From Candidatus Cybelea tumulisoli (GTDB lineage Bacteria > Vulcanimicrobiota > Vulcanimicrobiia > Vulcanimicrobiales > Vulcanimicrobiaceae), in assembly GCA_003167155.1 (NCBI GenBank), contig PMTY01000185.1, positions 11,945 to 46,372 of the forward strand: a DNA stretch of 34,428 nucleotides, written 5' to 3'. Position 1 is the first letter of the stretch; the number at the start of each line of letters is the position of its first letter. Below the pieces are notes generated by a model, which saw only the letters and a list, made by a program, of their open reading frames with translations, ran no database searches and was not told the origin of the DNA. The translations under genes were made by a program, and so were the position numbers. This document shows positions 1-16,926 of this stretch, one piece after another.

Positions 1-667
1 CTGCGACCGTTTCCAGCACGTGCTCGCAGTTATCGAGAATCAGCAGCACCGCTCTGTCCTTAAGATGAGCGACTAGCGTCTGGAGCAGGGAACGATTCTG
101 AACCTCTTGCACGCCTAACGCCGACGCTAGCGCCGTTACAACAAAAGAAGGAACGGCGATTGACGCGAGTCCGATAAAGTAGACGGCAGTCCCGCCGGCT
201 TCGCTCAGTGCGGTTGCGGCCCGCAACGCTGCCTGAGTCTTACCGATCCCTCCCGCCCCGGTTAGCGTGACCATCCGATGATCGCGCAGCATAGCGGCGA
301 TCTCGTCGAGTTCAACGCTGCGCCCGACAAAACGAGTCAGCGCCAGCGGGAAGCTTGCGCTCCCAGCGTTATGCCATGGATCAGCGGCGAGTGAGGTTTC
401 GGTTCGACTCCGCGGAGAGCGTAGGCGCGTAGCGGCCGCCTCGAATGCGCGGCGTTCCTCGACACTAAGTGCCAGCGCAACGGCCAGACGGCCAAGCGTT
501 TCTCGCTGTGGAGTGCGCCGGTAGCCGCGTTCGAGTGCGCTGATTCCATACGAACTAACTCCAGCGCGTTCGGCCAGCGCCTCTTGTGAGAGGCCCGCGG
601 CGAACCGGTAGCGCCGCAGCAGCGCTCCAAAGGCCGATAGGTCAGACTCCTGGGGCTCGTCCTGCAT
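1..667 (-). CDS. XRE-family HTH / NB-ARC-type ATPase transcriptional regulator, C-terminus beyond window edge
   Basis: Partial gene reading off the left edge; 222 N-terminal codons are visible. The N-terminus carries an XRE helix-turn-helix (about residues 25-45, LSQEALAERAGVSSYGISAL). It is followed by an NB-ARC/AfsR-like STAND ATPase with Walker A (TGAGGIGKT) and Walker B (LLILDNCEH). The missing part should hold the rest of the ATPase and TPR-like repeats, as in the full-length paralogue at 16927-19437, which has the same order and near-identical motifs. The ATG at 667 is preceded by AGTGGAG; an in-frame GTG two codons upstream is an alternative. Such proteins are single-component regulators whose ATPase gates DNA binding; the ligand is unknown. 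Confidence 0.85.
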   Translation of the reverse strand, partial: MQDEPQESDLSAFGALLRRYRFAAGLSQEALAERAGVSSYGISALERGYRRTPQRETLGRLAVALALSVEERRAFEAAATRLRSPRSRTETSLAADPWHNAGSASFPLALTRFVGRSVELDEIAAMLRDHRMVTLTGAGGIGKTQAALRAATALSEAGGTAVYFIGLASIAVPSFVVTALASALGVQEVQNRSLLQTLVAHLKDRAVLLILDNCEHVLETVA

Positions 668-1044: not shown

Positions 1045-1812
1045 CTATTTATCCGCTTGCATGCGGGCGACGTCGGCGGCGGAGATACCCTCCAATGCCT
1101 GACCGTAGCCGACGCTCTCATCGACGATGCGGCGGAGCTTCTGCGTCAACGCAACGCGGCTGTAACTAGCGGTCAACGGGGGGAGCTTGGCGATCCCTCC
1201 GGCAATCTCGCGTGCCCGGCGGAGCAGGTTCTCAGGTGGCACGATTTCGCTGATCACGCCGAGCCGCAGTGCCTCTTCGGCGTCGATCACTTGCTGCGTG
1301 AGAACGAAAGTGCGTCCACGAATTGATCCGATGACCTCCGGCCACAGCGAATGAATGCCATCGCCAGGGACAATGCCGAATGCAAAATGCGGCTTGTCTT
1401 GAAACACCGTGCTCGGCGTCGCGATGACGATGTCGCAGAGGAGCACAAACTCGGAGTGCACGGTCGTGGGACCATTGAGAGCGGCGATCATCGGCACGGG
1501 GATGTCCAAGAGATTGGCCAGGACCTTCTTTCCCTCGCGGTAGATTTTGTCATAACCGCGGGGCGTAAAAAAGTCGAACCCCTCCGCATCGATGTTGTCG
1601 ATGAACGCTGCGCCGGCGCCAGTCAAGATCACCACGCGATTGTCTACGTCTTGGCCGATTTGATGAAACAACTCAACGAACTCTTCGTGCACGTGGCCAT
1701 TGAAAACCAGCGTGCCACCATCTGTGTGTAGGGAAGCTTCTAAAACGCCCTCGGGCGAGCGAGTGAGTTTGGCGTGCGGGAATGCGTTGCAGTAGCTATT
1801 AAAACTCATCAT
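1045..1812 (-). CDS. Crotonase-superfamily C-C hydrolase, 6-oxocamphor hydrolase-like (annotated elsewhere as enoyl-CoA hydratase)
   Basis: A 255-residue protein of the enoyl-CoA hydratase/isomerase fold. It resembles 6-oxocamphor hydrolase (OCH), which cleaves cyclic beta-diketones by a retro-Claisen reaction without CoA. From memory, OCH catalysis uses His122, His145, Asp154 and Glu244; here His119 (VHSEF), His142 (QDKPHF), Asp151 (GIVPGDG) and Glu241 (QALEG) fall at a constant offset of three. The oxyanion-hole region VVILTGAGAAF and the block NGPTTVHSEF are also OCH-like. The first of two adjacent ATGs has GGAGG upstream. Transcription should start at the dyad promoter at 1824-1869. The true substrate is unknown; a standard enoyl-CoA hydratase role is less likely given the His/Asp set. 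Confidence 0.8.
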   Translation of the reverse strand: MMSFNSYCNAFPHAKLTRSPEGVLEASLHTDGGTLVFNGHVHEEFVELFHQIGQDVDNRVVILTGAGAAFIDNIDAEGFDFFTPRGYDKIYREGKKVLANLLDIPVPMIAALNGPTTVHSEFVLLCDIVIATPSTVFQDKPHFAFGIVPGDGIHSLWPEVIGSIRGRTFVLTQQVIDAEEALRLGVISEIVPPENLLRRAREIAGGIAKLPPLTASYSRVALTQKLRRIVDESVGYGQALEGISAADVARMQADK

Positions 1813-1823
1813 TTGTTGCCTCC

Positions 1824-1869
1824 ATTATAGCGGCTGTTGGCCCGGTGGTCTGCCGACAAGCACTCGGCA
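1824..1869 (-). promoter_or_regulatory. Dyad promoter A: 19-bp dyad plus -10 box, upstream of the crotonase
   Basis: The plus strand reads TGCCGA-CAAGCAC-TCGGCA at 1851-1869, a perfect 6-bp inverted repeat with a 7-bp centre. On the minus strand it is followed, after 21 bp, by TATAAT (1829-1824), then GGAGG and the crotonase ATG. The hexamer 17 bp from the -10 is CAGACC, not a TTGACA-like -35, so the dyad probably binds an activator. The dyad sits just outside the stop codon of the upstream flavoprotein gene. Confidence 0.7.
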
Positions 1870-1870
1870 T

Positions 1871-2629
1871 CTAGAGGCCGCCGTAGCGTTCGGTGTGGAT
1901 GAGCGCGGCCGCCATACCGGCTGCGACGGCGCCATCGGCGGCCGCATTCACGAAGGCGTTCGTGCCGCAAATGAACATCGCTTTCGGCGGCGTCGGCAAT
2001 TGTGAGAGAACTTCACGGATTATCGTACCGTCGATGCGGCGCATATAGTCGACCGGACGGCGCGACGGCTCGCGCGTAATCGCAAAGACCGCTTTGAAGG
2101 TCGGATCTCCCATCGCGTATTCCAGCAACTCATCGCGGAACGGGATATCGGCCCACGTTCGAGCAGATATGAGCGACAACGTTGAGACGCTCGACTGCTT
2201 CGCGCGGCGATGACGCAGCATCGACATCAAGGGTACCGTGCCGGAGCCGCCACCCACGAGAAAAAGCGGTCCCCCGTCGGACACGTCCCAGATAAAGTAG
2301 CCACCGATTGGCCCACGCAACTCGATCGTGTCCCCCACCATGGCGACGTCGTGGAAAAACGACGAAACCTCGCCGCCCTCAATCTTCTCGATCGAGAGTT
2401 CAAGCTCGCCGACATCTTCCGGCGCCGACGCGATCGAATAGCTGCGCTCTGCACGATAACCGTCTGGGGCTGTGAGACGGATGTCGACGTGTTGGCCCGC
2501 CCGAAGCGCAAACGGGTTCGACAGCTTAAAGAAAAAGTTCTTGATACGGGGCGTGTTCTCGTTGATTCGGCTGATGACGGCGTCCTGCCAGAGCAGTGGG
2601 GCAGGCGCCGTGCGCAGTCCCTCAATCAC
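1871..2629 (-). CDS. Ferredoxin-NADP reductase-like FAD/NAD(P)H oxidoreductase, partner of the molybdoenzyme
   Basis: FNR-superfamily flavoprotein of about 252 residues. The FAD domain has RSYS at 62-65 and GGEVSSFFHD near 85-94. The NAD(P) domain has GGGSGTVP at 126-133, then MFICG, and it ends in the family-typical HTERYGG. No 2Fe-2S domain follows, so electrons probably pass directly to or from a partner. I start it at GTG 2629, which overlaps the molybdoenzyme stop by 8 bp (GTGATTGA) with AGAGGA upstream. The open frame extends to 2785, but that extension lies inside the upstream gene and has no FNR character. The overlap implies translational coupling with the sulfite-oxidase-like protein, a pairing familiar from other bacteria. 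Confidence 0.85.
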   Translation of the reverse strand: MIEGLRTAPAPLLWQDAVISRINENTPRIKNFFFKLSNPFALRAGQHVDIRLTAPDGYRAERSYSIASAPEDVGELELSIEKIEGGEVSSFFHDVAMVGDTIELRGPIGGYFIWDVSDGGPLFLVGGGSGTVPLMSMLRHRRAKQSSVSTLSLISARTWADIPFRDELLEYAMGDPTFKAVFAITREPSRRPVDYMRRIDGTIIREVLSQLPTPPKAMFICGTNAFVNAAADGAVAAGMAAALIHTERYGGL

Positions 2630-3224
2630 CCTGGTAACGTTCCTCTTTCCACGGGTCACCGTGATCGTTGTATCCGCGCAATTCCCAAAAACCGGGCGTG
2701 TTATCGGGAATAAATTGGATTGCGTTGACCCACTTCGCCGACTTCCAAAAATAGAGATGCGGTACGAGCAGCCGCGCGGGACCACCGTGATCGGGCGGTA
2801 TCGGCATGTCGTTGTATTTCAGGGCGACCAAAGCTTTGCCGTTGCGCACGTCACTGGTTGCCAGATTGGTCGAGTAGCCGTCGCACGAATGCGCCAGCAG
2901 AAAAGGCGGCGGATCGGTCAATGCGGCGTCGCGCAGCAGATCGTCAATGTCCACACCTTCCCACTTCGTGTTGAATTTGCTCCACGTCGTGACGCAGTGG
3001 ATGTCGCGAATCACGCTCGTCTGCGGCAGCGCGTTAAACTCCGCCCACGTCCAGGTCTTGACCGGTCTCGGGCCAAGGCGAAGCGCAAAGTTCCAATTGT
3101 CGAGCTGAATCCTCGGCGTCGGGCCGAACGAGAGCACCGGAAAGTCTTCCGTGAGGTGTTGACCGGGAGGGAGCCGCCCCCCCGAATCGGCCGGGCGCCG
3201 GCCGACGAAACCACGTGTTGGCAT
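2622..3224 (-). CDS. Sulfite oxidase-like molybdopterin-dependent oxidoreductase (YuiH-like)
   Basis: A 200-residue single-domain member of the sulfite oxidase/MsrP molybdopterin fold. Cys77 in RDIHCVTTWS is the expected molybdenum-ligating cysteine. The blocks LAHSCDGYSTNL, PPDHGGPARLLVPHLYFWKSA and the C-terminal GFWELRGYNDHGDPWKEERY are typical of this short family. There is no signal peptide, dimerisation domain or haem domain, so it is predicted cytoplasmic and must use an external redox partner, most plausibly the FNR-like protein encoded directly after it. The ATG at 3224 is preceded by GGGAGG seven bases away. It lies about 100 nt downstream of the dyad promoter at 3330-3375. The substrate is not evident; sulfite is only one option. 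Confidence 0.85.
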   Translation of the reverse strand: MPTRGFVGRRPADSGGRLPPGQHLTEDFPVLSFGPTPRIQLDNWNFALRLGPRPVKTWTWAEFNALPQTSVIRDIHCVTTWSKFNTKWEGVDIDDLLRDAALTDPPPFLLAHSCDGYSTNLATSDVRNGKALVALKYNDMPIPPDHGGPARLLVPHLYFWKSAKWVNAIQFIPDNTPGFWELRGYNDHGDPWKEERYQGD

Positions 3225-3329
3225 CTACTGACCTCCCATCTAGGAGATGGACCGAGAATCATCCCCACCTGCATCGTGAACCAATACGCCGGCTCAACGG
3301 ATTCGTGTGCGGGTGGAACGGCACAAAAT

Positions 3330-3375
3330 ATCATAGTGTCCGCTGAGCCGGTGGTCTGCCGACAGGCAGTTGGCA
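3330..3375 (-). promoter_or_regulatory. Dyad promoter B upstream of the sulfite oxidase-like gene
   Basis: Dyad TGCCGA-CAGGCAG-TTGGCA at 3357-3375 (one mismatch between arms), followed on the minus strand after exactly 21 bp by TATGAT (3335-3330). The 11 bases on the gene side of the dyad, GACCACCGG and neighbours, match promoter A closely. It lies between the DUF3034 stop (3402) and the molybdoenzyme start (3224), giving a leader of about 100 nt. Confidence 0.7.
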
Positions 3376-3401
3376 TCTTCGATCGCACGGGGACGCCGGC
3401 G

Positions 3402-4262
3402 TTAAAACGTCCCTTGGGCTTGTAGGTAGAGCCCCTGCTGATTCGGCGTCATATTCGGCAGCCTCGGGCCCACTTGACCGAGGTTAAGATAGGCCGCCGT
3501 AAGGGCGAAGTGCGAGTTAAGGAACAGCGCGGCGAAGATGTCCCATTTCGATTGTTCTTGAATGCCGGCAACGGCGCTGCTGATGTTATTGGGCGAATAG
3601 CGGTATTCGCCGCCGATCGCGACGTTGGCCGCGACAAAAGCGCCGGCTGAAAACTCTGGCTCCAGTTGGTACGCGTTGTGCCCGTTGGAGCCGCCGCCAA
3701 AGCCGAGAAGTCCGAATTGGTCCGCCTTTGTTGCGCGAAACGTGCTGTCGAGCACCACCGGGACGGAGCCGAGTTTTACCGTTTTCGTCGCCGCGAGATA
3801 GAAGTCGACTCCCGACGTGCTGCTAATTGCTCCCGCGTGTTTGAGGTACTGTACGATTTGACCGTAAGCGTTCTTAGCCTGCACGCCGGCGGCGATCGAC
3901 GGAACCGCATTGTGCGGATTCGCCTCGACTAGTAAGTACTTCGCCCCGATGATCGACTGTCCGAGGTGACTGTTGAGAGCAAGCGCGTTGCCAACCGCGG
4001 GAGCATTGATCCACTGTTGAGCGTAGCTAAGCTCGAGTCGCTTGAACGCGGTACCACTGATGCCGCCAACTTGCAGCAAATAATCCTGTGTACCAACATA
4101 CCAAAACGAAAACTGCGGGCTGTTCGGCGCAGTAAAGGCCCATGCGGCCAAGCCGCCTCCGGCTGCACCTTCAACTTCTGTGGGTGCCGCGACTGCTGAA
4201 CCAAAGGTGGCGAGGAGCGACGCTAGGCAAACCCCTGCGACGACGAGAGCTGAACGAAACAT
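3402..4262 (-). CDS. DUF3034 family outer-membrane beta-barrel protein
   Basis: A 286-residue secreted protein with an N-terminal signal peptide (hydrophobic 5-25, then SAVAAPTEVEG). It matches DUF3034 end to end: VEGAAGGGLAAWA near the mature start, GTQDYLLQVGG, KRLELSYAQQ, ATKTVKLGS, the central FRATKADQFGLLGFGG, YQLEPEFSAG, GGEYRYSPNN and LTAAYLNLGQVG before QQGLYLQAQGTF. Alternating hydrophobic strands and a C-terminal Phe fit an outer-membrane barrel. AGGAG lies seven bases before the ATG. Function in the family is unknown; a channel for a small solute is possible. It sits between the urease operon and the molybdoenzyme pair, but no dyad promoter precedes it. Confidence 0.8.
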   Translation of the reverse strand: MFRSALVVAGVCLASLLATFGSAVAAPTEVEGAAGGGLAAWAFTAPNSPQFSFWYVGTQDYLLQVGGISGTAFKRLELSYAQQWINAPAVGNALALNSHLGQSIIGAKYLLVEANPHNAVPSIAAGVQAKNAYGQIVQYLKHAGAISSTSGVDFYLAATKTVKLGSVPVVLDSTFRATKADQFGLLGFGGGSNGHNAYQLEPEFSAGAFVAANVAIGGEYRYSPNNISSAVAGIQEQSKWDIFAALFLNSHFALTAAYLNLGQVGPRLPNMTPNQQGLYLQAQGTF

Positions 4263-4523
4263 GAGACTCTCCTACATTTTCCTCGCCCACGATGATGTCG
4301 GCGATGTCGACGGTGGTCGGAGTATTCGTCAGCGCTTCAACAGATAGCGAGGCGAATGATAGACGGCGACTCCGACAAAGCCAAGCGGTGATTCCCCGCC
4401 TGCGTCGTCGGCCTGATTTGGTCTTTGTGCCTCGACAATTTGTCTCACGTTGTCGGGTTATGATAGAACTCGAGAGCTGCGACGTCAGCCTAGCAGCAGT
4501 CAGCAGCCATCTCAAAATCGCTG

Positions 4524-5189
4524 TTAGGAGGGCGGCCGAACCTCTAAACCGCCTTTCTCGATCAGAACCTTTGCGATTTGCGCAACGCCTTCCCCGTTTT
4601 TCAAATTAGTGAAGATGAACGGTCGGGCTCCGCGCATTTTGAGGGCATCCGCTTCCATCACTTCGAGGCTTGCCCCAACGAGCGAAGCCAAATCGATCTT
4701 GTTTATCACGAGGAGGTCGGAGCGCGTAATGCCAGGGCCGCCTTTGCGCGGAATTTTTTCGCCTCCTGAAACGTCAATCACGTATACCGTTAGGTCCGCC
4801 AGCTCGGGGCTGAAGGTTGCGGCAAGATTGTCGCCACCCGACTCGATGAAGCACAGCTCCGTGTCGGGAAACCGGCCATTCATTTCTTCAATGGCTGCAA
4901 GGTTGATTGACGCATCCTCTCTGATCGCCGTGTGAGGGCAGCCGCCTGTTTCGACTCCCATGATGCGCTGAGCCGGCAGTGCGTTGGCTCGTGTGAGAAT
5001 GAGCTGATCTTCCTTGGTGTAAATGTCGTTCGTGATAACGTACATTTTATAGACATCTCGAAGCCGTTTGCATAGGGCTTCAATGAGCGCTGTCTTGCCT
5101 GAACCGACCGGTCCACCTATGCCGATGCGTAAGGGACCATGATGCCGTGCCTCTGTACCGGCGGAGTCATCTTGAGCAAAAACTCTCAT
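4524..5189 (-). CDS. ureG: Urease accessory GTPase UreG
   Basis: SIMIBI-class GTPase of 221 residues that couples GTP hydrolysis to nickel delivery into apo-urease, acting with UreE, UreF and UreD. The P-loop GGPVGSGKT is at residues 25-33. The metal-binding Cys-Pro-His of the family is present ([10 protein letters not shown]), followed by [13 protein letters not shown] and the guanine-specificity motif NKIDL. The length is normal and there is no N-terminal His-rich extension. Its ATG overlaps the ureF stop as ATGA, so it is translationally coupled and is the last gene of the operon. No strong terminator was seen in the 260 bp before the DUF3034 gene. Confidence 0.97.
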
Positions 5190-5896
5190 GAGCGAAATAA
5201 CCTCGTGTATTGCGTTTCGTGCGCCATTGAGGCGAGATCCAGAGTGAATGCGGCGGACCCGAGGTCATCAACGGAAGTCGTTTCGGCCTCCGTGCTTGCC
5301 GACAAGACCGCCTTTTCAAGTGCAGCGATGGCGAACTGACCGTCAGTTTGGCCCAAGGGAATCAGCCGAACTCCCGCGATCACCAAGTTGGCGATGTAAC
5401 TTTGCAGAAATGCCGGCAAGACGAGGCTAACGGGAAGATGCTGCGTTGCCCCGCGTACACCAAGAACAACAGCCAACACGGGTTGAATATCGCGTTCGCA
5501 GAGCACTTGCGAAAGCCAGCCCAAGGTCTCGTCTGGCCAGACCGCCTGTAAGGTCCCCAGACACGCTGCGGCTTGCTGCCACGACTCGCGCGCGAACTCA
5601 GAAGTCGCGCGAAAGGCTGCTGCCAGCTCTGCAATCTCGAGGAGCTTCGCGCGATCGTTCCTTATCGTGCAGCACCAAGCCTCATAGAAAAAGAACGCTT
5701 CATTGCGAGCAGAGCCGTAGCTAAGATCTGCTTCGAGCCAATCGACAAGACTTTGGCGATCGCTTACGTGGCCCGCTTCGACAGCCCATTCCAGGCCATG
5801 GGAGTAACTGAAAGAACCGATCGGAAACGCCGGCGACAGCCAGGCCTGCAACCTTATTTGAGAGAGCGGCGCTAAGCACCGCTCATGACTCATCAT
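5186..5896 (-). CDS. ureF: Urease accessory protein UreF
   Basis: All-helical chaperone that, with UreD and UreG, forms the pre-activation complex on urease and acts on the UreG GTPase. The diagnostic [17 protein letters not shown] lies near the N-terminus, and the family C-terminal tail is present ([11 protein letters not shown]). I start it at the paired ATGs 5896/5893, preceded by GAGG, giving about 236 residues. The open frame continues to 5983, but that part overlaps ureE and has no UreF character. The chosen start overlaps the ureE stop by about a dozen bases, consistent with coupled translation. Confidence 0.93.
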
Positions 5897-6353
5897 GCTC
5901 ATCCTCGCGGCGGACGTTTTGGCCGTCATAAGCGCCACCCTCAGGCTGGAACGCTCTTTGCACCTTGGCGAGATTAGCGCCAAACCCGCGCAGCATATCC
6001 TCGATCACGTGATCCGGTCGGATATAGAGACACTCCGCTTGAACTTCCGTCGGCAAGTGTCGATTTCCCAGATGCCAAGCAAGGCGTACGAGTTGATTCG
6101 GCATCTCGTGCCTCACTTCTATAATCGGTTCCGAGGCGGCTTGAACCTTTAGCCATCTTCCATCTTCTAGTTGTAAGCCGTCTCCGTCTGCCATCGCAAC
6201 CGCCTTTGGAAGCTCGAGAAGGACGTCTTCGCCATCATCCACACCCAAGAGAATGCGGCGGCGATGGCGCTCGTCGAAATCGAGCGTAACTGTGCCGGCA
6301 GCTTTTTCTTTTGGCCAACAACCTGCCCGTCGATGAATTAAGCTATATAGCAT
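5883..6353 (-). CDS. ureE: Urease nickel metallochaperone UreE
   Basis: A 156-residue UreE with an N-terminal peptide-binding-like domain and a C-terminal metal-binding domain. The latter has LAWHLGNRHLPTEV and IRPDHVIEDMLRGFGA, whose histidines bind Ni2+ in the dimer. The tail ([16 protein letters not shown]) contains one His and several acidic residues rather than the His-rich tail of the Klebsiella protein, so nickel storage capacity is probably low. The ATG lies a few bases after the ureC stop, with only a weak purine stretch (GAAAGA) as ribosome-binding site. Confidence 0.95.
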   Translation of the reverse strand: MLYSLIHRRAGCWPKEKAAGTVTLDFDERHRRRILLGVDDGEDVLLELPKAVAMADGDGLQLEDGRWLKVQAASEPIIEVRHEMPNQLVRLAWHLGNRHLPTEVQAECLYIRPDHVIEDMLRGFGANLAKVQRAFQPEGGAYDGQNVRREDEHDES

Positions 6354-6362
6354 GGAAATCTT

Positions 6363-8066
6363 TCAGTACATAAAATAGCGTTGCGCCATTGGAAGCACTT
6401 TCGCTGGATTGCAGGTAAGAAGCCGGCCATCGGCGCGCACCTCATATGTTTCAGGGTTGACATCGATGTGAGGCATGGCGCTGTTCAACACCATGGACTG
6501 CTTGCCGATTTTGCGCGTGTTCGTCACGGGCAACAGCTTCTTGGCAAGTCCGTATCCCGCGGCGTTTGCTCGTCCGGCCTGGCTGACGAATATGACGGAG
6601 CTTTCCGTTAAGGAGCGGCCGAAGGCGCCAAACATCGGGCGATAGTATTCCGGCTGCGGGCTCGGAATAGAAGCGTTCGGGTCTCCCATAACTGCAGCAG
6701 CGATCGTTCCGCATTTCAGCACCATATCGGGCTTTATCCCGAAAAATTTCGGTTGCCAGATACAGAGATCGGCAAGCTTTCCAACTTCGATAGAACCAAC
6801 GTACGTAGAAATGCCCTGAGCTATCGCGGGATTGATCGTGTATTTCGCAATATATCGGCGCACGCGGAAATTGTCGTTGTCGCCCGTCTCCTCGGAAAGT
6901 TGCCCGAATTGTTTTTTCATTTTGTCGGCGGTCTGCCAAGTACGAAGTATCACTTCGCCCACGCGGCCCATCGCCTGGCTGTCGGACGACATAATTGAAA
7001 GCGCACCCATATCGTGCAGCAGATCCTCCGCCGCTATCGTTTCTCGGCGAATGCGGCTTTCGGCGAAGGCGACATCCTCTGGAACGCGACGATCGAGATG
7101 ATGCGTCACCAAGACCATATCGAACGCTTCATCGGTCGTATCTACGGTGTACGGCCGTGTCGGAGTCGTCGAAGCCGGAAGCACATTTGCCTCACTGCAG
7201 ATTTTTATAATGTCTGGCGAGTGTCCGCCGCCGGCCCCCTCCGTGTGGAAGCTGTGAATCGTTCTTCCCTTGAACGCAGCAATAGTGCTTTCGACGAAGC
7301 CGCTTTCGTTTAAGGAATCGGTGTGAATAGCAACCTGCACGTCCATGTCATCTGCTACTGAGAGGCAACAATCGATGGCGGCGGGTGTCGTACCCCAGTC
7401 TTCATGGAGCTTGAGGCCACACGCTCCGGCCTCAATCTGCTCCACGAGACTCGGCGGCAGGCTCGCATTTCCTTTTCCAAAGAGACCGATGTTCACGGGG
7501 AACGCCTCGGCCGCTTGAAGCATTCTTTGAATGTGCCAAGGCCCCGGCGTGCACGTCGTAGCGGCCGTTCCGACAGCCGGACCGGTCCCACCGCCCATCA
7601 TGGTGGTCAGGCCCGAATACAGTGCCTCCTCGACCTGCTGCGGACAGATGAAGTGAACGTGGGTGTCGATGCCACCTGCGGTGACGATGGTACCTTCCCC
7701 GGCGATTACCTCAGTTCCGGGACCGATGATGATATCCACGTTCGGCTGCACATCTGGATTGCCGGCTTTGCCGATAGCGTCAATGCGTCCATCCTTGATG
7801 CCGAGATCGGCCTTGACGATTCCCGTGGAATCGAGAATCAACGCATTTGTAATGACGGTATCAACTGCGCCTTCACTCCGGGATCGCTGCGACTGGCCCA
7901 TGCCGTCGCGAATGACCTTCCCGCCGCCGAATTTGACCTCCTCACCATAGGTGGTGAGGTCCTTCTCAACTTCGATGATGAGATCGGTGTCCGCTAGGCG
8001 AACTTTATCACCCACCGTTGGGCCAAACATCTGCGCATATGCGGCACGACTCATTTTGGTCGTCAT
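6363..8066 (-). CDS. ureC: Urease alpha subunit, active-site flap Thr variant
   Basis: Catalytic subunit (567 residues) hydrolysing urea to ammonia and carbamate at a dinuclear nickel centre. All metal ligands are visible at an offset of two from Klebsiella numbering: His136 and His138 (THVHF), Lys219 to be carbamylated (GLKLHEDWG), His248, His274 (HSFHTEG) and Asp362 (SSDSQAMGR). The flap general acid His322 is present. The flap residue usually Cys319 is Thr321 here (LVTHHLD instead of the usual MVCHHLD); the codon is ACG at 7106-7104, so this is not a translation error. Its ATG overlaps the ureB stop (ATGA). Subunits are separate, as in most proteobacterial-type operons. Confidence 0.98.
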
Positions 8067-8371
8067 GGCAATGCTCCCATAACCGCTTGACGAAATCCGA
8101 ACACCATGCGTGCCCCTTCATAGGGAATCAACATAACATCACGCGCCTGCCCCGGCTCGAAGCGTACAGCCGTTCCCGCTGGTATGTCCAAGCGATGTCC
8201 CACGGTAACTTGTCGATCGAACGCGAGAGCCGGGTTGGTTTCAGCGAAATGGTAGTGACTGCCGACCTGGATCGGCCTGTCGCCTGTGTTCGCAACGTTG
8301 AGAGAAATTGCCGGCCTCTCTTGGTTGAGGACAATGTCGCCCGAACCCGGAAAGATTTCGCCCGGTATCAT
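8063..8371 (-). CDS. ureB: Urease beta subunit
   Basis: A 102-residue structural subunit of the (alpha-beta-gamma)3 urease. The family blocks are clear: MIPGEIFP at the start, [43 protein letters not shown] and [10 protein letters not shown]. Start ATG is preceded by AAGGAGG, the strongest ribosome-binding site within the operon. It overlaps ureC by four bases and follows ureA by a short gap. Confidence 0.97.
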
Positions 8372-8386
8372 GTCAATATCGCCTCC

Positions 8387-8689
8387 TTAGCGAATAGGAT
8401 CGTGAACGGCAACGAGCTTCGTGCCATCGGGAAACGTGGCTTCAACTTGCATCTCATCGAGCATTTCCGGAATGCCTTCCATCACTTGATCGCGAGTCAG
8501 CACCGTTCCGCTTTCCGACATCAGCTCGGCGACGGATTTGCCGTCTCGCGCAGCCTCCAAAATAAAATCCGTTATGATCGCGACACTCTCCGGATAGTTT
8601 AGTTTAACGCCCCTTGTAAGACGTGCCCGAGCGACTAGCGCAGCGAGCGAGATCATGAGCTTGTCTTTTTCACGCGGCATAAAATTCAT
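8387..8689 (-). CDS. ureA: Urease gamma subunit
   Basis: A 100-residue gamma subunit. It has the typical start [20 protein letters not shown], then [26 protein letters not shown] and the C-terminal [22 protein letters not shown] region ending in VHDPIR. Length and sequence match free-standing UreA, so gamma and beta are not fused here. The ATG is preceded by AGGGA. It lies 28 bp downstream of ureD in the same operon. Confidence 0.97.
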
Positions 8690-8717
8690 AATGTCCCTGC
8701 TTCTGCTGGTGTGTGGT

Positions 8718-9578
8718 CTAACACGACCACATCTTAGGCACTCTGAAAGGACCGGAGCACGGCTCGAGGCTCACGTTCTCGAGAAAGGCGCGTAAAGCGC
8801 ACCGCAAGTCGAACGCTGACCGCGCTGCAAAGCGTATAATGATGAGGCCGCCAATCAATGTAGCGCCGCAGTGGTATCCCGATGAAGGAAGGATGTCCCG
8901 GAAGTGGCCCAGACTCGATTCGAGATGGGGTCCATAATAGATCAGCGTTGCAACGGCGATGCAGTTACCAAGGAGTGCGTTTCGGCGAATGTTGGGAAAT
9001 CCTGAATCGCTGATTCGAAAGCTGTCCGCCCAGATCAGCCGACCGTCTTTCCTGACCCGCCAGCTGTCTGTGATATGTCCCCAGATGACTTTCTCGCCGT
9101 TCAAGGCACGCCCAAGCACGAGCCACTCGAGGGCAAGCACTTCCCCTCCCGACGAAACCTCGATTTCCATTTTGCGAGTCAGCCGGCCACCATTGAATAA
9201 GATTGTTTCCTGTGGTAGCCACGCAAGTTTTGCCGCATTGGCCACTTTCAGGTTTGTGGTAATACGCGCGGGTTGACTCAGGGCGCGGTAGACCTTTTCA
9301 GCCGCCTGCGTCGTCACGTTGATGGATGCATCTGTTAGTACGGTAACCTGGACTCCGAGCTTATCTCCGCCGGCAATACCGCCCGCGGTATTTATCAGAA
9401 CGGCCTCCTCGACTTCGGCGCCGACCCGCGGGAACATGACACGCAGTGGCGAGCGTTCAAAGACGTCCATGACGCGCGTGCCCCGATCGGAGCCGCTCAG
9501 AAGGATGCGGGCGGAACCTTCCGCCCGCTGCATATCCTCATCCGACGCCACCAACCCGATCGTTTTCGATGGAGTCAA
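8718..9578 (-). CDS. ureD: Urease accessory protein UreD
   Basis: UreD (UreH) scaffold for urease activation. Recognisable blocks are [62 protein letters not shown] and the C-terminal FRVPKMWSC, giving 286 residues if translated from TTG 9578. That TTG overlaps the propeller stop codon as TTGA, suggesting coupled translation. GTG 9551 and ATG 9533 are in-frame alternatives, the ATG having GAGG very close upstream. The C-terminal third is more diverged than the core. It is the first true urease gene of the transcript. Confidence 0.92.
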
Positions 9579-10843
9579 AATCCAACTAACCCTTGGGGGC
9601 TATTGTAGGGGATAGGGGCCCTACTGATTTCGCTAAGCGAACCGTCGGGCTGAATGGCATATCCTACGAGCGTCGAGGCATTGCCGTAGATCTGGTAGAG
9701 ATGGCGGCCGTCCGGTGAAACCCAACTGTCGCTCGGACCGCTGCTTACCGTTCCGTTGAGAGCTCGCCACGCGCCGTCGCCCGGAACCTTGGGGCACGCC
9801 GGATCGGACGCGACGCGGATAACATCGCCGTCTACGACAAAGCTGGTAACGTAACCGTAACCGAAATTCGTAGCGAAGATGAATCTATCGTCAGGCGATA
9901 TCGAAACCCAGCATAACTCGCTCGGTCTTCCCCCGCTCGTGTCAACCGGCACGATCGGGCCTAGCTCGATCTTTCCATCCGAATCGATACGCCCCATGGC
10001 CACGCCGTCGCCGACCGCGTATCCGACGACAAAGTGGTCGGGTCGATGGTGCAAGAACTGTGGGTTCCACGGTGAGCCGCCGCCCCCGTCATAGAACGTG
10101 GGCCCGATGAGCGAGCCGTCTCCGTTCAGGCGAAACACAGCCAGCCCGTCGGGATCCGGCGCGTTGGAAGCGATCGAATGGGGTTCACCATTTTTCCCGT
10201 TGACCCAAAGAATTGGCGAACCGTCTGGATTAGCCATGGCAGGCTGGTCGAACGTGGTACCAACGATGAGAAAACGCTCGTCCGCCGATAGCGCCGCCGT
10301 GGTGGCGATGCGATGGGGCTTGTTTATCGTATTCATCGTGTAGCCCTCCGGACGCGGGTACAGTCGTCCTTCCTTGTCAACCGTCATAAGACGGATATGG
10401 TCGGGACCAAACGAATGCAAGACGTAGAGAGTGCCGCACGAAGGTGAATAAGTCAGCGACTTAGCGCTGCCGCTCCGCCCATTGACTTGGCCAAAGCGCC
10501 CGGTCAATACGTTTCCCGTCCGTTTGACGTCTATCGGCGTCAGTCGGCCATCGTCGCCGACACCAAAGCTCGAGACGGAGTTGTCGCCGCCGTTGGTCGC
10601 AAACAGAAACCGTCCATCCGGCGTAAGAATGACGCTGGCGGCGCCTTCGAACGCATTAGGAGCACTGGGCTCGTCGCTTACCGGCTTGTATGTGCCCGAA
10701 CCCGCGCCACCGGTAGGGATGCGTTCGTGCTCGGAGATCGTACCGTCCGGAGCCCGTAGATAGCGAATTATGCAGTTCCGAATCTCGTTTGTCTGCATGT
10801 AGAGATGTCCGCCGCGGTTCATCTGCATGCTCGAATCGTGCAC
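9575..10843 (-). CDS. Lactonase-like seven-bladed beta-propeller protein heading the urease operon
   Basis: About 422 residues with repeated blade signatures such as VILTPDGRFLFATNGGDNSVSSF, LTYSPSCGTLYVLH, LSADERFLIVG, VSISPDDRFIFATNFGYGYV and VSPDGRHLYQIYGN. The pattern is that of the 6-phosphogluconolactonase / 3-carboxymuconate cyclase-like propellers. No signal peptide, so probably cytoplasmic. The start is GTG 10843 because AAAGGAGG lies seven bases upstream; the open frame runs to 10966, but that would cross the promoter. It directly follows dyad promoter C, and its stop overlaps the ureD start (TTGA). Enzyme activity is not proven by the sequence; a lactonase or a binding role is possible. 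Confidence 0.8.
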   Translation of the reverse strand: MHDSSMQMNRGGHLYMQTNEIRNCIIRYLRAPDGTISEHERIPTGGAGSGTYKPVSDEPSAPNAFEGAASVILTPDGRFLFATNGGDNSVSSFGVGDDGRLTPIDVKRTGNVLTGRFGQVNGRSGSAKSLTYSPSCGTLYVLHSFGPDHIRLMTVDKEGRLYPRPEGYTMNTINKPHRIATTAALSADERFLIVGTTFDQPAMANPDGSPILWVNGKNGEPHSIASNAPDPDGLAVFRLNGDGSLIGPTFYDGGGGSPWNPQFLHHRPDHFVVGYAVGDGVAMGRIDSDGKIELGPIVPVDTSGGRPSELCWVSISPDDRFIFATNFGYGYVTSFVVDGDVIRVASDPACPKVPGDGAWRALNGTVSSGPSDSWVSPDGRHLYQIYGNASTLVGYAIQPDGSLSEISRAPIPYNSPQGLVGF

Positions 10844-10901
10844 TATTGTTCCTCCTTTGAAATACCTTGTAGTACGGGTGATAACAGACCTTATGCGCCT
10901 A

Positions 10902-10947
10902 AATATAGGGCGCACTGCAGTAAATGTATGCCGACAGGCAGTCAACA
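10902..10947 (-). promoter_or_regulatory. Dyad promoter C driving the propeller-urease operon
   Basis: Dyad TGCCGA-CAGGCAG-TCAACA at 10929-10947; on the minus strand, after exactly 21 bp, TATATT at 10907-10902. The left arm and centre are identical to promoter B. It lies in the short gap between the nickel permease stop (10956) and the propeller gene, about 60 nt before the AAAGGAGG ribosome-binding site. It is the only visible promoter for the eight-gene propeller-ureDABCEFG run. Confidence 0.7.
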
Positions 10948-10955
10948 TTTTCGCG

Positions 10956-12035
10956 TCACCACGCATCCGCGGGCCATGCCCTCGACCGGTGAATCAGAGC
11001 CGAAACAATCCAACTCGCGAAGAAGAGTCCAACGACCGCGCAACCGAGCGTCCCCAAGTTTCCGTTTACGGCGTCGACGGCCGACCAGATTCCGCCGTTA
11101 AACCCTAGGCGATTGCCGAGCAGGTTCAACGCCTCGATGCCGCCGACGAGCAGTGCCGCAAAGATGGACACCGGCGTGACGATCGTGTTGTAGAACAGCT
11201 TGCGGTCAGGTCGCACAAAGGCCCACCCATAAGCCCCGAGCATCAGGATGCCGTCGGTCGTGTCGAGCAGCGACATTCCGGCCGCAAACAGCAACGGAAA
11301 CACCATAATCGTTGCGACGGGGAGCGCGTTGCCGGCCTCGATCGCAGCAATCCCCAGCAAAGCGACTTCCGTCGCCGTGTCGAAGCCCAAGCCAAAGACT
11401 ACGCCAAGCGGATACATCTTCCAACTTGCGTCTACCATCGCGAGAACCGGGCGGAAGAGGCGCCCGAGAAACCCGCCTTGCATTATCGGCGGGTCTAGAG
11501 CGTTGTCATCGTGGGCCTGGCCGCGATGCGCGCGCCCGTGGGCCCTCAGAACGTCAAACAGTACGCCGGCGTTGACGGTCGCGATCGCGAGCAGAAATAG
11601 CGCCGAGATTGCGGTACCGGCGACGCCGCCACCGACTCGCAAAAGCGGGACGCAATCCCGCACCGCGTTTGCGGCGACCGCGATCGCGACGGTCAGTAAG
11701 ACAACGACGGTCGAGTGGCCAAGAGAGAAGTATAGCCCAACTGTCACGGGTCTGGATCCGTCGTGCATTAGCTTGCGCGTCACGCTATCGATCGCAACAA
11801 TGTGGTCGGCGTCTACGGCGTGGCGCAAGCCAAACGTGTAGGCCAGGAGTGCCGTTCCGAGCAGCACCGGATGCGAACGAAACGCGGCAAACGCCGCCAA
11901 CCAGGCCCCCGCGTTGAACGCGAACAGGAAGACGTACGTCCAGGCGATTTTCCCAAGCGCGGGCGCGAAGACGCTTAGGATGCCTCCTCCCTCATCGCCG
12001 CGTTGGAGGGTCCTAAGCCCTATCGACGTCGCCAC
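10956..12035 (-). CDS. nixA: NiCoT family nickel/cobalt permease
   Basis: Integral-membrane Ni2+ (Co2+) transporter of 359 residues with about eight hydrophobic segments. The NiCoT signature RHAVDADHI is at residues 71-79, and the other family blocks are YFSLGHSTVV, GLGFDTATE (215-223) and LFAAGMSLLDTTDG. A hydrophilic histidine-containing loop (AHGRAHRGQAHDD, about 165-177) separates the two halves. The start is GTG 12035 with GGAGGA upstream. It precedes the urease operon on the same strand, so its job is almost certainly supplying nickel to urease. A dyad (F) lies about 105-125 bp upstream. Confidence 0.92.
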   Translation of the reverse strand: MATSIGLRTLQRGDEGGGILSVFAPALGKIAWTYVFLFAFNAGAWLAAFAAFRSHPVLLGTALLAYTFGLRHAVDADHIVAIDSVTRKLMHDGSRPVTVGLYFSLGHSTVVVLLTVAIAVAANAVRDCVPLLRVGGGVAGTAISALFLLAIATVNAGVLFDVLRAHGRAHRGQAHDDNALDPPIMQGGFLGRLFRPVLAMVDASWKMYPLGVVFGLGFDTATEVALLGIAAIEAGNALPVATIMVFPLLFAAGMSLLDTTDGILMLGAYGWAFVRPDRKLFYNTIVTPVSIFAALLVGGIEALNLLGNRLGFNGGIWSAVDAVNGNLGTLGCAVVGLFFASWIVSALIHRSRAWPADAW

Positions 12036-12140
12036 GCGCGTACTTCCTCCGCCCTAAATCGACGCCAGGAGCTTGGCCAGTTCAGGATTGCTCGTTGGCG
12101 CGTATGCTGTTGAGCGTATCCCAGTAGCGACTCTTGTGTC

Positions 12141-12159
12141 TGCCAAGTAATACTCCGCA
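12141..12159 (-). promoter_or_regulatory. Dyad F upstream of the nickel permease
   Basis: Plus strand TGCCAA-GTAATAC-TCCGCA, the same 6-7-6 architecture, with GTCTGCC at its gene-proximal end as in dyads A, B and D. The expected -10 position on the minus strand holds only a weak match (TACGCT, 22 bp away), so this promoter would be strongly activator-dependent or the site may act differently. It is divergent from dyad E 53 bp away. Confidence 0.5.
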
Positions 12160-12211
12160 CTCTGAAAGCGCACCGCGAAGGCGCCAAGTCGATTGCTGTA
12201 TTTGGAGCCGC

Positions 12212-12257
12212 TGCGCACTTGTAGTCCGCAGACGCAGATCGGCAGATAGATTATGAT
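12212..12257 (+). promoter_or_regulatory. Dyad promoter E upstream of the VOC gene
   Basis: Plus-strand dyad TGCGCA-CTTGTAG-TCCGCA at 12212-12230 is followed by GAC and, after exactly 21 bp, by TATGAT at 12252-12257. The element has the same geometry as A to C but faces right, toward the VOC gene. The arms deviate more from TGCCRA than the other copies. The predicted transcript start is near 12264. Confidence 0.6.
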
Positions 12258-12336
12258 CCACCGGGCATTTTGAAGGCGGAACGTGGACGACGGAGTTCAA
12301 CAGGGTACGCCTTGGTCGAGTAGGAGTGAAGCCTTA

Positions 12337-12771
12337 ATGAAACAAACGCAAACTGAGTCAAAGCGATACGAGATCCCGCCTCGCGAAGGAATTACGGTTA
12401 CGCACGCCCTGATTGTGGCTGACCTCGAACCGTCGGTGGCGTTTTACGAGGGCGTTCTGGGAGGACGCATCCTACGGAAAGGTTCGCCGACGGTCATCGA
12501 GCTTGCGAACGCGTGGGTTGTTGTCGACATAGGAGGGCCGCCTACGGATGATAAGCCGACGGTAACGTTGCAGCCGCCGGGAGATTTCAACCAAGTCAGC
12601 AGCTTCATGAATATTCGCGTCGCCGACATTCAAGCGTGCTACGAGGAATGGCGCAAGCGAGGCGCCCAGTTCCTCACCGAGCCCAAGGATCTTGGATACG
12701 AAATACGCTGTTATATGCGCGATCCTGGTGGGCACCTCATCGAGGTAGGACAGTCAAAAGAGGATCGCTGA
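12337..12771 (+). CDS. VOC (glyoxalase/bleomycin-resistance/dioxygenase) superfamily protein
   Basis: A 144-residue single VOC module with two beta-alpha-beta-beta-beta repeats. THALIVADLEPSVAFYEGVLGG opens the first and MNIRVADIQACYEEWRKRGAQF opens the second, ending in MRDPGGHLIEVGQ. Candidate metal ligands are His27 (VTHALIV) and the C-terminal Glu in LIEVG; His in GGHLIEV is family-typical. ATG 12337 has AGGAG ten bases upstream; an in-frame GTG at 12283 with AAGGCGG upstream would add 18 residues. The substrate cannot be read from the sequence. It is convergent with the HTH-GAF regulator and controlled from dyad E. Confidence 0.8.
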   Translation: MKQTQTESKRYEIPPREGITVTHALIVADLEPSVAFYEGVLGGRILRKGSPTVIELANAWVVVDIGGPPTDDKPTVTLQPPGDFNQVSSFMNIRVADIQACYEEWRKRGAQFLTEPKDLGYEIRCYMRDPGGHLIEVGQSKEDR

Positions 12772-12804
12772 CTGCCGAAATAGGACGTCGCATAAAGAAG
12801 AACT

Positions 12805-13671
12805 TCAAGCGCCGGCTGAGAGGGCGTGCGATACGAGCGCAGCGACCGTGCTCAAGTGCTCCCGCTCGACTTCGTCATACTGATGAGGGGTCACGTGGAC
12901 GGCCCCGAGGCTCGCGACGAAGCCGAGCCTCGATCGCACTCTAGCGGTAATAAAATCGTAGTCATTCAGGCCGGCGAAGTCGAGCGCAGAGGCAAACGAC
13001 TCCGCGAATGGATATCGTAGGTCTGATCGCGCGAGGACGTCACCCGGTTGAACGAGGATTGTGGCGTGTTGCATTTCATCGATGTGCACCGAGTCATAGT
13101 TCGCCCTCGCGAACGAATCGAATGTCGCATGTAGCTTTAGCGGTGCCGGCTTCCCGATCGCGATATGGTCGTCCCAGCCACCTGTATCGCGGCGCGCCCG
13201 ACTCGCAAATAGATCGGATGTAAAGTGCCTCGTGCCGTACTCGCGAACGAGAGTCAGCGCTTCCACTTCGGTCGTCGCTGTCCAAAGCTTTTGACCGAGC
13301 GAACGTAACGATCGAAATGCTTCGAGAACCTCGCCTGCGGCGGGCGTGAGTATCGTCGCGCGGAGTTCCGGGACAGCCAGTTCAAATATAACCACGCGTT
13401 CGGAAGCACTCAGCATCAACACGTCGGCAATGCGACCGAGTAGCGTGGGAGAGACGCGCAGTCCTTTTTTGGTCTCTAACATCTGGTACCAGTTCCGACT
13501 GATACCGACGGCCTCCGCGACCTCTTCCTGGGTAACGGCCTTACCGACGCGTGTAGGAAAGCGAAGGCTCTGGCCCAGCGACCGAGTCTCCGAATGAATG
13601 CGGCGGCGCGCCCTTTTGAGCAGGCCTGCCAGGCCCAGGGCTTCTCGCTCGCTGAAAGCGCTACGCTGCAT
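12805..13671 (-). CDS. XRE-type HTH regulator with C-terminal GAF/PAS-like domain; candidate regulator of the dyad sites
   Basis: A 288-residue protein. The HTH lies at about 48-67 (TQEEVAEAVGISRNWYQMLE) and is followed by the usual XRE helices to 100. Residues 110-285 look like a GAF- or PAS-like ligand domain, ending in EREHLSTVAALVSHAL. The layout resembles MmyB-like regulators, which from memory bind small ligands and often sit divergently beside SDR genes, exactly the arrangement here. The HTH region aligns closely with that of the peroxiredoxin fusion at 15635-16657. No ribosome-binding site precedes the ATG, and TTGACG near 13712-13717 with TGAAAT closer in could give a nearly leaderless transcript. 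Dyad D lies 118 bp upstream. Confidence 0.8.
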   Translation of the reverse strand: MQRSAFSEREALGLAGLLKRARRRIHSETRSLGQSLRFPTRVGKAVTQEEVAEAVGISRNWYQMLETKKGLRVSPTLLGRIADVLMLSASERVVIFELAVPELRATILTPAAGEVLEAFRSLRSLGQKLWTATTEVEALTLVREYGTRHFTSDLFASRARRDTGGWDDHIAIGKPAPLKLHATFDSFARANYDSVHIDEMQHATILVQPGDVLARSDLRYPFAESFASALDFAGLNDYDFITARVRSRLGFVASLGAVHVTPHQYDEVEREHLSTVAALVSHALSAGA

Positions 13672-13788
13672 AAGTGCTAAACAAAATCGATTTCACGCGA
13701 TAATTCCGTTACGTCAAGGGCGCGGCAGCTCCCATTCGGGATGAGCCGCCAACGTTCTTCCTCCGTACCACGGCGACGTCGCGGCGTC

Positions 13789-13807
13789 TGCCAACAGGCA
13801 CTCTACA
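13789..13807. promoter_or_regulatory. Dyad D between the HTH-GAF regulator and the SDR gene
   Basis: TGCCAA-CAGGCAC-TCTACA, flanked symmetrically by GTC on the left and GAC on the right, so GTCTG and CAGAC form an outer dyad. Rightward, TATCCT lies 22 bp away in front of the SDR ATG (13845). Leftward, TACGGA lies 21 bp away toward the regulator. Both -10 matches are weak. The site is positioned to control one or both divergent genes, and is the reason to link the neighbouring regulator to the other five copies. Confidence 0.6.
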
Positions 13808-13844
13808 GACTATTTGTGCGAATCCGAGTTATCCTGAAGCCGTC

Positions 13845-14552
13845 ATGGAAGACCCGAACGCGCGAGAGCGGCCAACCTGCGTTATTGTCGGCGCCGGCCC
13901 CCGACTCGGTCTTGCAATTGCCGAGCGTTACGCGCGCGAGGGCTTCTCCGCATACATGCTGCTGCGTAACCCGCAGCGTCTAGAACGTCAAATTGCTTGG
14001 GCGCGTGCGCGTAACCTGTGCGTGATCCCCTTGGTGTGTGATGTCAGCAGCTCAACGTCGGTAAGGCGCACAGTCGACTATATCAAAGATTACACGCCCA
14101 ACTGCGACGTCTTAATCTACAACGCCTTCGCCCCCTCGGCGGGCCCCGTATCGTCGTTAGACCCTGAGTGCTTGCTCTCCGAGTTTCGCGTTAACGTAGC
14201 AGGCGCGCTCTCGTTCGTAAAGCTCTTCTCCGACGACATGAGAACGAGATCGAGCGGGACCATACTTTTTTCCGGGTGTGGTCTCGCACACGCGCCCTCT
14301 GCCGCGTGGTCCTCACTTAGCGTCTCCAAAGCAGCATTACGAGCCCTGGTCGACTGCGTAGCAGAAGAGGCGCAAGCGGATGGCGTTCGAGTCGGTATGG
14401 TGACAATCAACGGAATGATGCCAAGCACTGCCGCCGCGCTGAAGATGATCGCGGATTTATACTGGCAACTCTTCGTGCGGAGCGATCAGGATCACCAGCG
14501 TGAGCTGTGGTTCAATAACGAGGACACCGTTCTCCCGGTGAAGGCTGATTAG
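13845..14552 (+). CDS. Atypical short-chain dehydrogenase/reductase lacking the catalytic tyrosine
   Basis: A 235-residue Rossmann-fold SDR. The nucleotide loop is GAGPRLG at 16-22, Asp66 is in VCDVSSS, and NAFAPSAG (93-100) replaces the usual NNAG. The serine region is LFSGCGLA. Lys162 of the YxxxK motif is kept, but the tyrosine position is Leu158 (SLSVSKAAL). Without that Tyr, classical hydride-transfer catalysis is unlikely; a binding or regulatory role or a different acid is possible. ATG 13845 is the first in frame, with no strong ribosome-binding site. It is divergent from the HTH-GAF regulator, and its stop overlaps that of the convergent propeller by three bases. Confidence 0.75.
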   Translation: MEDPNARERPTCVIVGAGPRLGLAIAERYAREGFSAYMLLRNPQRLERQIAWARARNLCVIPLVCDVSSSTSVRRTVDYIKDYTPNCDVLIYNAFAPSAGPVSSLDPECLLSEFRVNVAGALSFVKLFSDDMRTRSSGTILFSGCGLAHAPSAAWSSLSVSKAALRALVDCVAEEAQADGVRVGMVTINGMMPSTAAALKMIADLYWQLFVRSDQDHQRELWFNNEDTVLPVKAD

Positions 14553-16657: not shown

Positions 16658-16926
16658 TAACGACTCCTTGGCAGCCTATATTTTCTTCTCGAACATAACG
16701 AAACGGGTAAGCGATCACTCTGACTAGAATATTTAAGGAGAGCTCACGAAATGTCGACCAAGTGACAGTTGGTAATGCGCTACGGACGAACTCCTCCCAT
16801 TAACGACCTGCGCAGCCGAGACTTGCGTTGCCCTAGGCCCATCACCAGTCTAGCCTTGCCGGCCGGCCCTCGAACAGCGACAGTTCATACAGTTCGTCAA
16901 CAGTTGCAAGGGGTCGGCTAGGGCTC

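Follow-up and report, generated by a model that had tools for sequence, protein, structure and literature searches.

What switches on a gene cluster for a urease, a molybdenum (Mo) oxidoreductase and a nickel importer in Candidatus Cybelea tumulisoli, and does a single regulator do it? The question is raised by a 34,428-nucleotide stretch of contig PMTY01000185.1 (assembly GCA_003167155.1, positions 11,945 to 46,372), hereafter the window, where a 19-bp dyad recurs at seven sites (A to G, Table 1), one for each of the seven transcription units that we infer. With moderate confidence, we propose that these sites are operators of a cluster-encoded activator of the XRE family, most likely the protein P0002 encoded at 12805-13671, which would act from class II positions.

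Dyad promoters of the cluster

A preliminary description of this DNA had listed six dyads with the consensus TGCCRA-N7-TYNRCA. All six 19-mers (A to F) are present where it placed them, and in A, B, C and E the gap to TATAAT, TATGAT, TATATT and TATGAT, respectively, is exactly 21 bp. The consensus fits five of the six sites, but site E departs from it (TGCGCA). The set, real as far as it went, was also incomplete: a matrix trained on A to F, of which the -10 box was not a part, returned site G as its top new place, and G carries TATCAT at exactly 21 bp. Sites A, B and C are strong, F has a strong dyad and D is the weakest. Towards the SDR gene, site F has TTATCC at 21 bp or TATCCT at 22 bp (13830-13835). 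Site D does not hold up as a full promoter, having no good -10 (ATACGC at 21 bp, TACGCT at 22 bp), and owes its place in the set to its contig rank and to the motif CAGAC only. Non-coding DNA makes up 8% of the interval 1045-14552. All seven sites fall within it (7% each for random placement) if the propeller gene heading the urease operon starts at 10843, and only with this start does site C lie outside that gene. The start was taken from the match limits of relatives, which begin at residue 42-53 of the open frame in 20 of 24 cases and at residue 13-28 in the other 4. A weak eighth dyad, TACCAACTGTCACTTGGTC + GAC (16756-16774, minus strand), lies in the stretch that separates the AhpC-HTH gene from the XRE-STAND gene, with no -10 at 21 bp.

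Table 1. Dyad sites and genes of the window and its contig. Positions are those of the window unless a locus is named; Mo, molybdenum; HTH, helix-turn-helix.
Feature	Position	Strand	Sequence, -10 box or remarks
ECH/OCH-like gene (enoyl-CoA hydratase/isomerase family)	1045-1812	-	
Site A	1851-1869	-	dyad TGCCGAGTGCTTGTCGGCA + GAC; -10 TATAAT 1824-1829; faces ECH/OCH-like gene
Mo-oxidoreductase/FNR pair	1871-3224	-	sulfite-oxidase-like molybdopterin protein 2622-3224; FAD/NAD reductase 1871-2785
Site B	3357-3375	-	dyad TGCCAACTGCCTGTCGGCA + GAC; -10 TATGAT 3330-3335; faces Mo-oxidoreductase/FNR pair
DUF3034 gene	3402-4262	-	
Site G	4487-4505	-	dyad TGCTGACTGCTGCTAGGCT + GAC; -10 TATCAT 4460-4465; faces DUF3034 gene
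Propeller-ureDABCEFG operon	4524-10843	-	read as one operon; likely propeller start codon 10843
Site C	10929-10947	-	dyad TGTTGACTGCCTGTCGGCA + TAC; -10 TATATT 10902-10907; faces propeller-ureDABCEFG operon
NicO nickel/cobalt transporter gene	10956-12035	-	
Site D	12141-12159	-	dyad TGCGGAGTATTACTTGGCA + GAC; CAGAC only on minus strand; faces NicO gene
Site E	12212-12230	+	dyad TGCGCACTTGTAGTCCGCA + GAC; -10 TATGAT 12252-12257; faces VOC gene
VOC gene (glyoxalase superfamily)	12283-12771	+	
Candidate regulator P0002, XRE HTH_31 protein	12805-13671	-	288 aa; C-terminal domain perhaps GAF-like
Site F	13789-13807	no strand	GTC-TGCCAACAGGCACTCTACA-GAC; divergent region between XRE gene and SDR gene
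SDR gene	13845-14552	+	divergent from XRE gene
AhpC-HTH_31 fusion gene	15635-16657		AhpC/TSA peroxiredoxin domain joined to XRE HTH_31
XRE-STAND gene	16927-19437		
IS605 OrfB/TnpB-like gene	20798-22105		
Further XRE gene	25058-25867		
LuxR-STAND gene	L098 3498-6272		same contig, left of window

The frequency of TAT[AG][AT]T in the contig is 0.00032 per position, and its presence at one distance in four of six sites has a binomial probability of 1.6e-13, a value uncorrected for the post hoc choice of that distance. The dyad consensus alone is weak: in the genome assembly (3.7 Mb, 92% complete) TGCCRA-N7-TYNRCA has 13 forward and 7 reverse matches, where its reversed control has 7 and 4. If two mismatches are allowed, the symmetric consensus stays close to background (96 versus 79). 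The fuller motif, TGCCRAC-N5-GTYGGCA-GAC plus the -10, is distinctive. Its 46-bp form, TGCCRAC-N5-GTYGGCAGAC-N18-TATNNT, gave four genome matches at up to three mismatches, which are A, B, C and E, and none in the control. The local regulon proposed earlier is supported, in that this promoter form was detected nowhere in the assembly outside these 12 kb. In the other 98 genomes of the family the 46-bp form had 14 matches versus 7 control matches, while the strict consensus with its -10 had no match outside the window in the 99 genomes.

Each site was also held out in turn and ranked among the untrained positions of the 46,372-bp contig (92,702 positions, the site itself counted). With a 22-column matrix, the number of positions that equalled or exceeded the score of the held-out site was 1 for A, B and C, 2 for D and E, and 4 for F; with the 19-mer alone it was 1, 1, 3, 8, 7 and 11 for A to F. 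Model R1, for which A, B, C, E and G served as training sites, found these five by construction and the untrained F at E 0.26; genome-wide, nothing beyond these six appeared at E up to 10, with 150 of 809 first-look candidates scored. Model R2, built from A, B and C only, found the held-out F at E 0.61, in a tie with a single place on a different contig (E 0.60), with 150 of 161 first-look candidates scored.

If the -10 spans -12 to -7, the dyad centre lies at about -43, inside the range of class II promoters (-41 to -44), and the dyad overlaps a non-consensus -35; the preliminary description had already noted this overlap and the likeness to class II promoters. Its statement that the -35 is missing needs amending: there is no good -35, but a degenerate one, CAGAC, is conserved at the dyad edge, 17 bp from the -10. 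It matches TTGACA at 3-4 of 6 positions in five window promoters and at 2 to 4 in ten promoters found near homologs of P0002. None of the five window promoters has a TGN extension of the -10. With a poor -35 and no such extension, these promoters would be expected to depend on an activator.

A candidate regulator and its relatives

The protein encoded at 12805-13671, previously put forward as the regulator, appears to be the best candidate, judging by the association of its family with the site architecture. P0002 matches HTH_31 with 31.5 bits against a curated cut-off of 27, which places it in the XRE family, and 12 of 12 aligned members (P0002 and 11 full-length homologs, 33-44% identity) match at E up to 1. 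The GAF domain attributed to it earlier has only weak support: GAF_2 matches 7 of the 12 family members (best E 0.019) but not P0002 itself. The AlphaFold model is poor in the C-terminal domain (mean pLDDT 42), and a sequence search of the PDB returned nothing significant.

Beyond this contig, we scored 35 loci that hold P0002 homologs, using a matrix trained on the window sites alone and without the -10. The loci partly overlap (for example L107 and L119, or L113 and L125), and no best hit was counted twice. As controls we took 36 loci, 18 retrieved by TGCC patterns and 18 weak propeller matches, leaving out the loci from the 46-bp search; two were too short for a -10 to be scored, which left 34. 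In 9 of the 35 homolog loci a TANNNT box stands exactly 21 bp after the best hit, and in another 2 it stands 22 bp after it; the controls gave 0 of 34. Over the remaining 17 offsets scanned, such a box turned up once in total. With the stricter TATNNT, the form of the window itself, the counts at 21 bp were 3/35 versus 0/34 (binomial 1.1e-5, Fisher 0.12). In L109 the arrangement is TGTCCACTGTCGCTTGGCAGAC-N18-TAGAAT, 50 bp from the start of the HTH-coding region of the homolog and facing away from it. Further examples stand in L120, L069, L114 and L116, and in L122 promoters lie on both sides of one dyad. In five loci (L109, L069, L114, L116 and L078) the site is no more than 450 bp upstream of the homolog and points away from it, much as F points towards the SDR gene. 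Model R1 found no match at E up to 10 in the 35 homolog loci; the link shows up only with the looser matrix and pattern.

We then searched the phylum with the pattern TGNNNA-N7-TNNNCAGAC-N18-TANNNT, which occurred at 38 places in 21 of 149 genomes versus 6 control places. This search is not independent of the previous one, because it was the homolog-side sites that had supplied the pattern. The stretches around all 35 places outside the window were examined as 31 loci. Eight of these contain an HTH gene of the P0002 family, within 3.3 kb for 10 of the 35 places and about 10 kb away for one more; the number to be expected within 8 kb is at most 0.08. Nine of the 24 places lacking a family gene lie outside the class and are partly AT-rich. 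Several of those within the class look real, and other regulators or distant family members must therefore be allowed. Convincing dyad promoters of the same architecture with no XRE gene of the family in the examined stretch are found in L164 (7973-8595), where promoters flank one dyad on both sides, and in L160 and L161 (both at 8001). In L170 a dyad promoter (10007-10106) is directly divergent from a LuxR-type STAND regulator gene.

In the mechanism we envisage, a P0002 dimer would sit on the 19-bp dyad centred near -43. The proximal half-site would merge into CAGAC, the degenerate -35 located 17 bp upstream of the -10, and the bound activator would hold sigma region 4, substituting for a good -35 in class II manner. 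Some signal, perceived through the C-terminal domain that may be GAF-like, might then switch on all the units at once: hydratase, Mo-oxidoreductase/reductase, DUF3034, propeller-urease operon, nickel importer, VOC protein and SDR. Activation of this kind by an XRE-type HTH is known from lambda CI at PRM.

Several observations weigh against this proposal. The TANNNT form was picked after the hits near homologs had been seen, and the difference in matrix score between homolog loci and controls is, taken by itself, a modest one (P 0.012). Just 5 of the 13 scored homolog-side sites lie within 450 bp upstream of an XRE gene (P 0.045), and the other 8 are farther off. In the phylum, the examined stretch lacks a family gene at 24 of the 35 outside places; 9 of the 35 had already been seen near homologs, and among the other 26 only two, both in L170, have one, at 3.2 and 10 kb. 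A TGN extension occurs in 3 of 10 homolog-side promoters. Model R2 misses E and G genome-wide at E up to 10, so these two sites rest on their contig-scale rank and on the -10 at 21 bp. Finally, other DNA-binding proteins are encoded nearby, namely the AhpC-HTH_31 fusion, the XRE-STAND protein, a second XRE protein and a LuxR-type STAND protein.

More tentatively still, and with some doubt, we suggest that TGNNNA-N7-TNNNCAGAC-N18-TANNNT is a compact operator-promoter cassette of this bacterial lineage, whose operator edge doubles as a weak -35, read by XRE activators that differ in their inner-base preference. Here one member might have captured a whole laterally acquired urease/Mo/nickel cluster by means of the cassette placed before all seven units, while related clusters in other phyla lack it. 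Such a cassette would make it possible to predict from sequence which genes this XRE family controls, and would give a handle on the signal, hence the substrate, of the propeller-urease-Mo-oxidoreductase cluster. The locus would be a clear example of a single local switch governing a multi-operon pathway that was apparently acquired, and it provides a regulator, an operator and a target set open to testing in a lineage known here mostly from draft assemblies.

Alternative readers and described regulators

The same operators could be read by another XRE-type protein encoded locally: the AhpC-HTH_31 fusion, the XRE-STAND protein or the XRE protein of 25058-25867. These share their HTH family with P0002 (P0003 is 41% identical to it where aligned), the weak eighth dyad is located upstream of the AhpC-HTH gene, and of the 8 outside loci in which a site and a family gene are both present, 3 (L178, L179, L182) also have an XRE-STAND homolog. 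In the remaining 5 of the 8, however, XRE-STAND has no match. Site F sits in the divergent region between P0002 and SDR, and in L109 and L114 it is again a full-length gene of the P0002 type that is divergent from the site. We regard another local XRE reader as unlikely.

Improbable, too, is a scheme in which the dyads are repressor operators, the repressor covering the -35 region until a ligand derepresses the cluster. The overlap of dyad and -35 region would suit it, and many XRE proteins are reported to autoregulate through palindromes upstream of their own genes (PMC12565409). Yet the -35 is poor in the promoters examined, with no extended -10 to compensate for it in the window, and the operator stays at a fixed distance from the -10 in other genomes as it does here, which a repressor would presumably not need.

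Could the promoters instead belong to a LuxR-type or other regulator encoded elsewhere, the XRE genes being mere neighbours? The dyad centre near -43 also suits LuxR-type activators, one LuxR-STAND gene lies in the same contig and another is divergent from a site in L170, and the 24 outside places without a family gene could be understood in this way. Nevertheless, lux boxes have the form TG-N10-CA and the dyad here is TG-N15-CA. Nor would an outside regulator account for homolog loci carrying the architecture when controls do not, and we consider it very unlikely. LuxR-STAND as the common regulator is unsupported: searches of the 31 outside loci with two LuxR-STAND queries (other LuxR types were not searched) gave a full-length homolog in one locus and one further match of 57 aa, and thus no LuxR-family gene regularly accompanies the sites as in a lux-box regulon. 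Chance, or the recent duplication of one promoter fragment, is barely credible: A and B do share CACCGG after the sites, but at the other sites, where the dyad, CAGAC and -10 are kept, neither flanks nor spacers are related, and the leave-one-out ranks and the restriction of the 46-bp form to A, B, C and E already disfavour it.

Returning to activation by P0002, we compared it with described regulators. In lambda CI at PRM and in the C-proteins of restriction-modification systems, an XRE-type HTH dimer is positioned at about -42 over a poor -35. The HTH type and the position proposed here would match; unlike these proteins, which serve one or two promoters of their own, the regulator would here govern seven transcription units of a metabolic cluster, from different operators. 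Class II CRP/FNR and LuxR promoters likewise have a dyad centred near -42 in place of the -35, and they differ from ours in dyad spacing (TG-N15-CA here) and in HTH family.

The nearest described kind found is the MmyB-like (MltR) family of XRE regulators in actinomycetes, where a pathway activator is suggested to target pseudo-palindromic B-boxes in one gene cluster (PMC3406030). Like those proteins, as portrayed there, P0002 joins an XRE HTH to a putative C-terminal sensor domain, and its gene, in common with theirs, is divergent from a dehydrogenase/reductase gene (SDR or MDR in that family, SDR here), with site F lying between the two; P0002 may work like an MmyB-like regulator. The MLTR_LBD domain (PF17765) that marks the family had no match, however, at E up to 1 in P0002 or its 11 homologs, and the cluster here is one of urease, Mo and nickel genes where theirs is for an antibiotic. 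Around 17 PF17765 loci of one Kribbella genome (520 bp each), neither the TGNNNA-N7-TNNNCA dyad nor the divergent CAGAC/-10 form was found, a comparison made with the window architecture and not with the published B-box sequence.

The gene set in other phyla and the neighbourhood

The preliminary description knew of no described regulon that joins these genes. None of the titles among the literature matches listed names such a regulon either, but the arrangement is less odd than it seemed, because most of the genes form a cluster in other phyla as well. Propeller relatives with 53-66% identity are found at 24 loci (L041-L064, some cut by contig ends) in actinomycetes, acidobacterial metagenome-assembled genomes, Bradyrhizobium and relatives, Burkholderia, Paraburkholderia and sphingomonads. 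Urease genes accompany them in 16 of the 24 loci, Mo and FNR genes both in 13, and L047 also has a hydratase gene. The gene set of the window thus overlaps that of the Bradyrhizobium, acidobacterial and actinomycete propeller-urease clusters. Unlike the window, none of the 24 loci matched the promoter model at E up to 10, and these relatives yielded no conserved sites. Within the phylum, which is probably Eremiobacterota, a propeller ortholog at E up to 1e-40 exists in this genome only of 149 (14 others have weak partial matches, E up to 0.001), which makes footprinting of the cluster near home impossible. The contig itself looks native, with homologs of P0002, XRE-STAND and the XRE protein of 25058-25867 in the same genus, family or class. 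We infer that the gene cluster was laterally acquired and that its regulation was installed either here or in an unsampled donor. A joint function of the propeller-urease-Mo-oxidoreductase cluster is not described among the literature matches listed. Next to the propeller gene of the acidobacterial L047, on its upstream side, are two genes for cytochrome P460.

Two neighbours of the cluster are of interest in their own right. The AhpC-HTH_31 fusion is a candidate for an unusual redox sensor-regulator. At the left edge of the window (1-660; L098 10295-12593), a second XRE-STAND gene matches as two separate pieces and looks interrupted.

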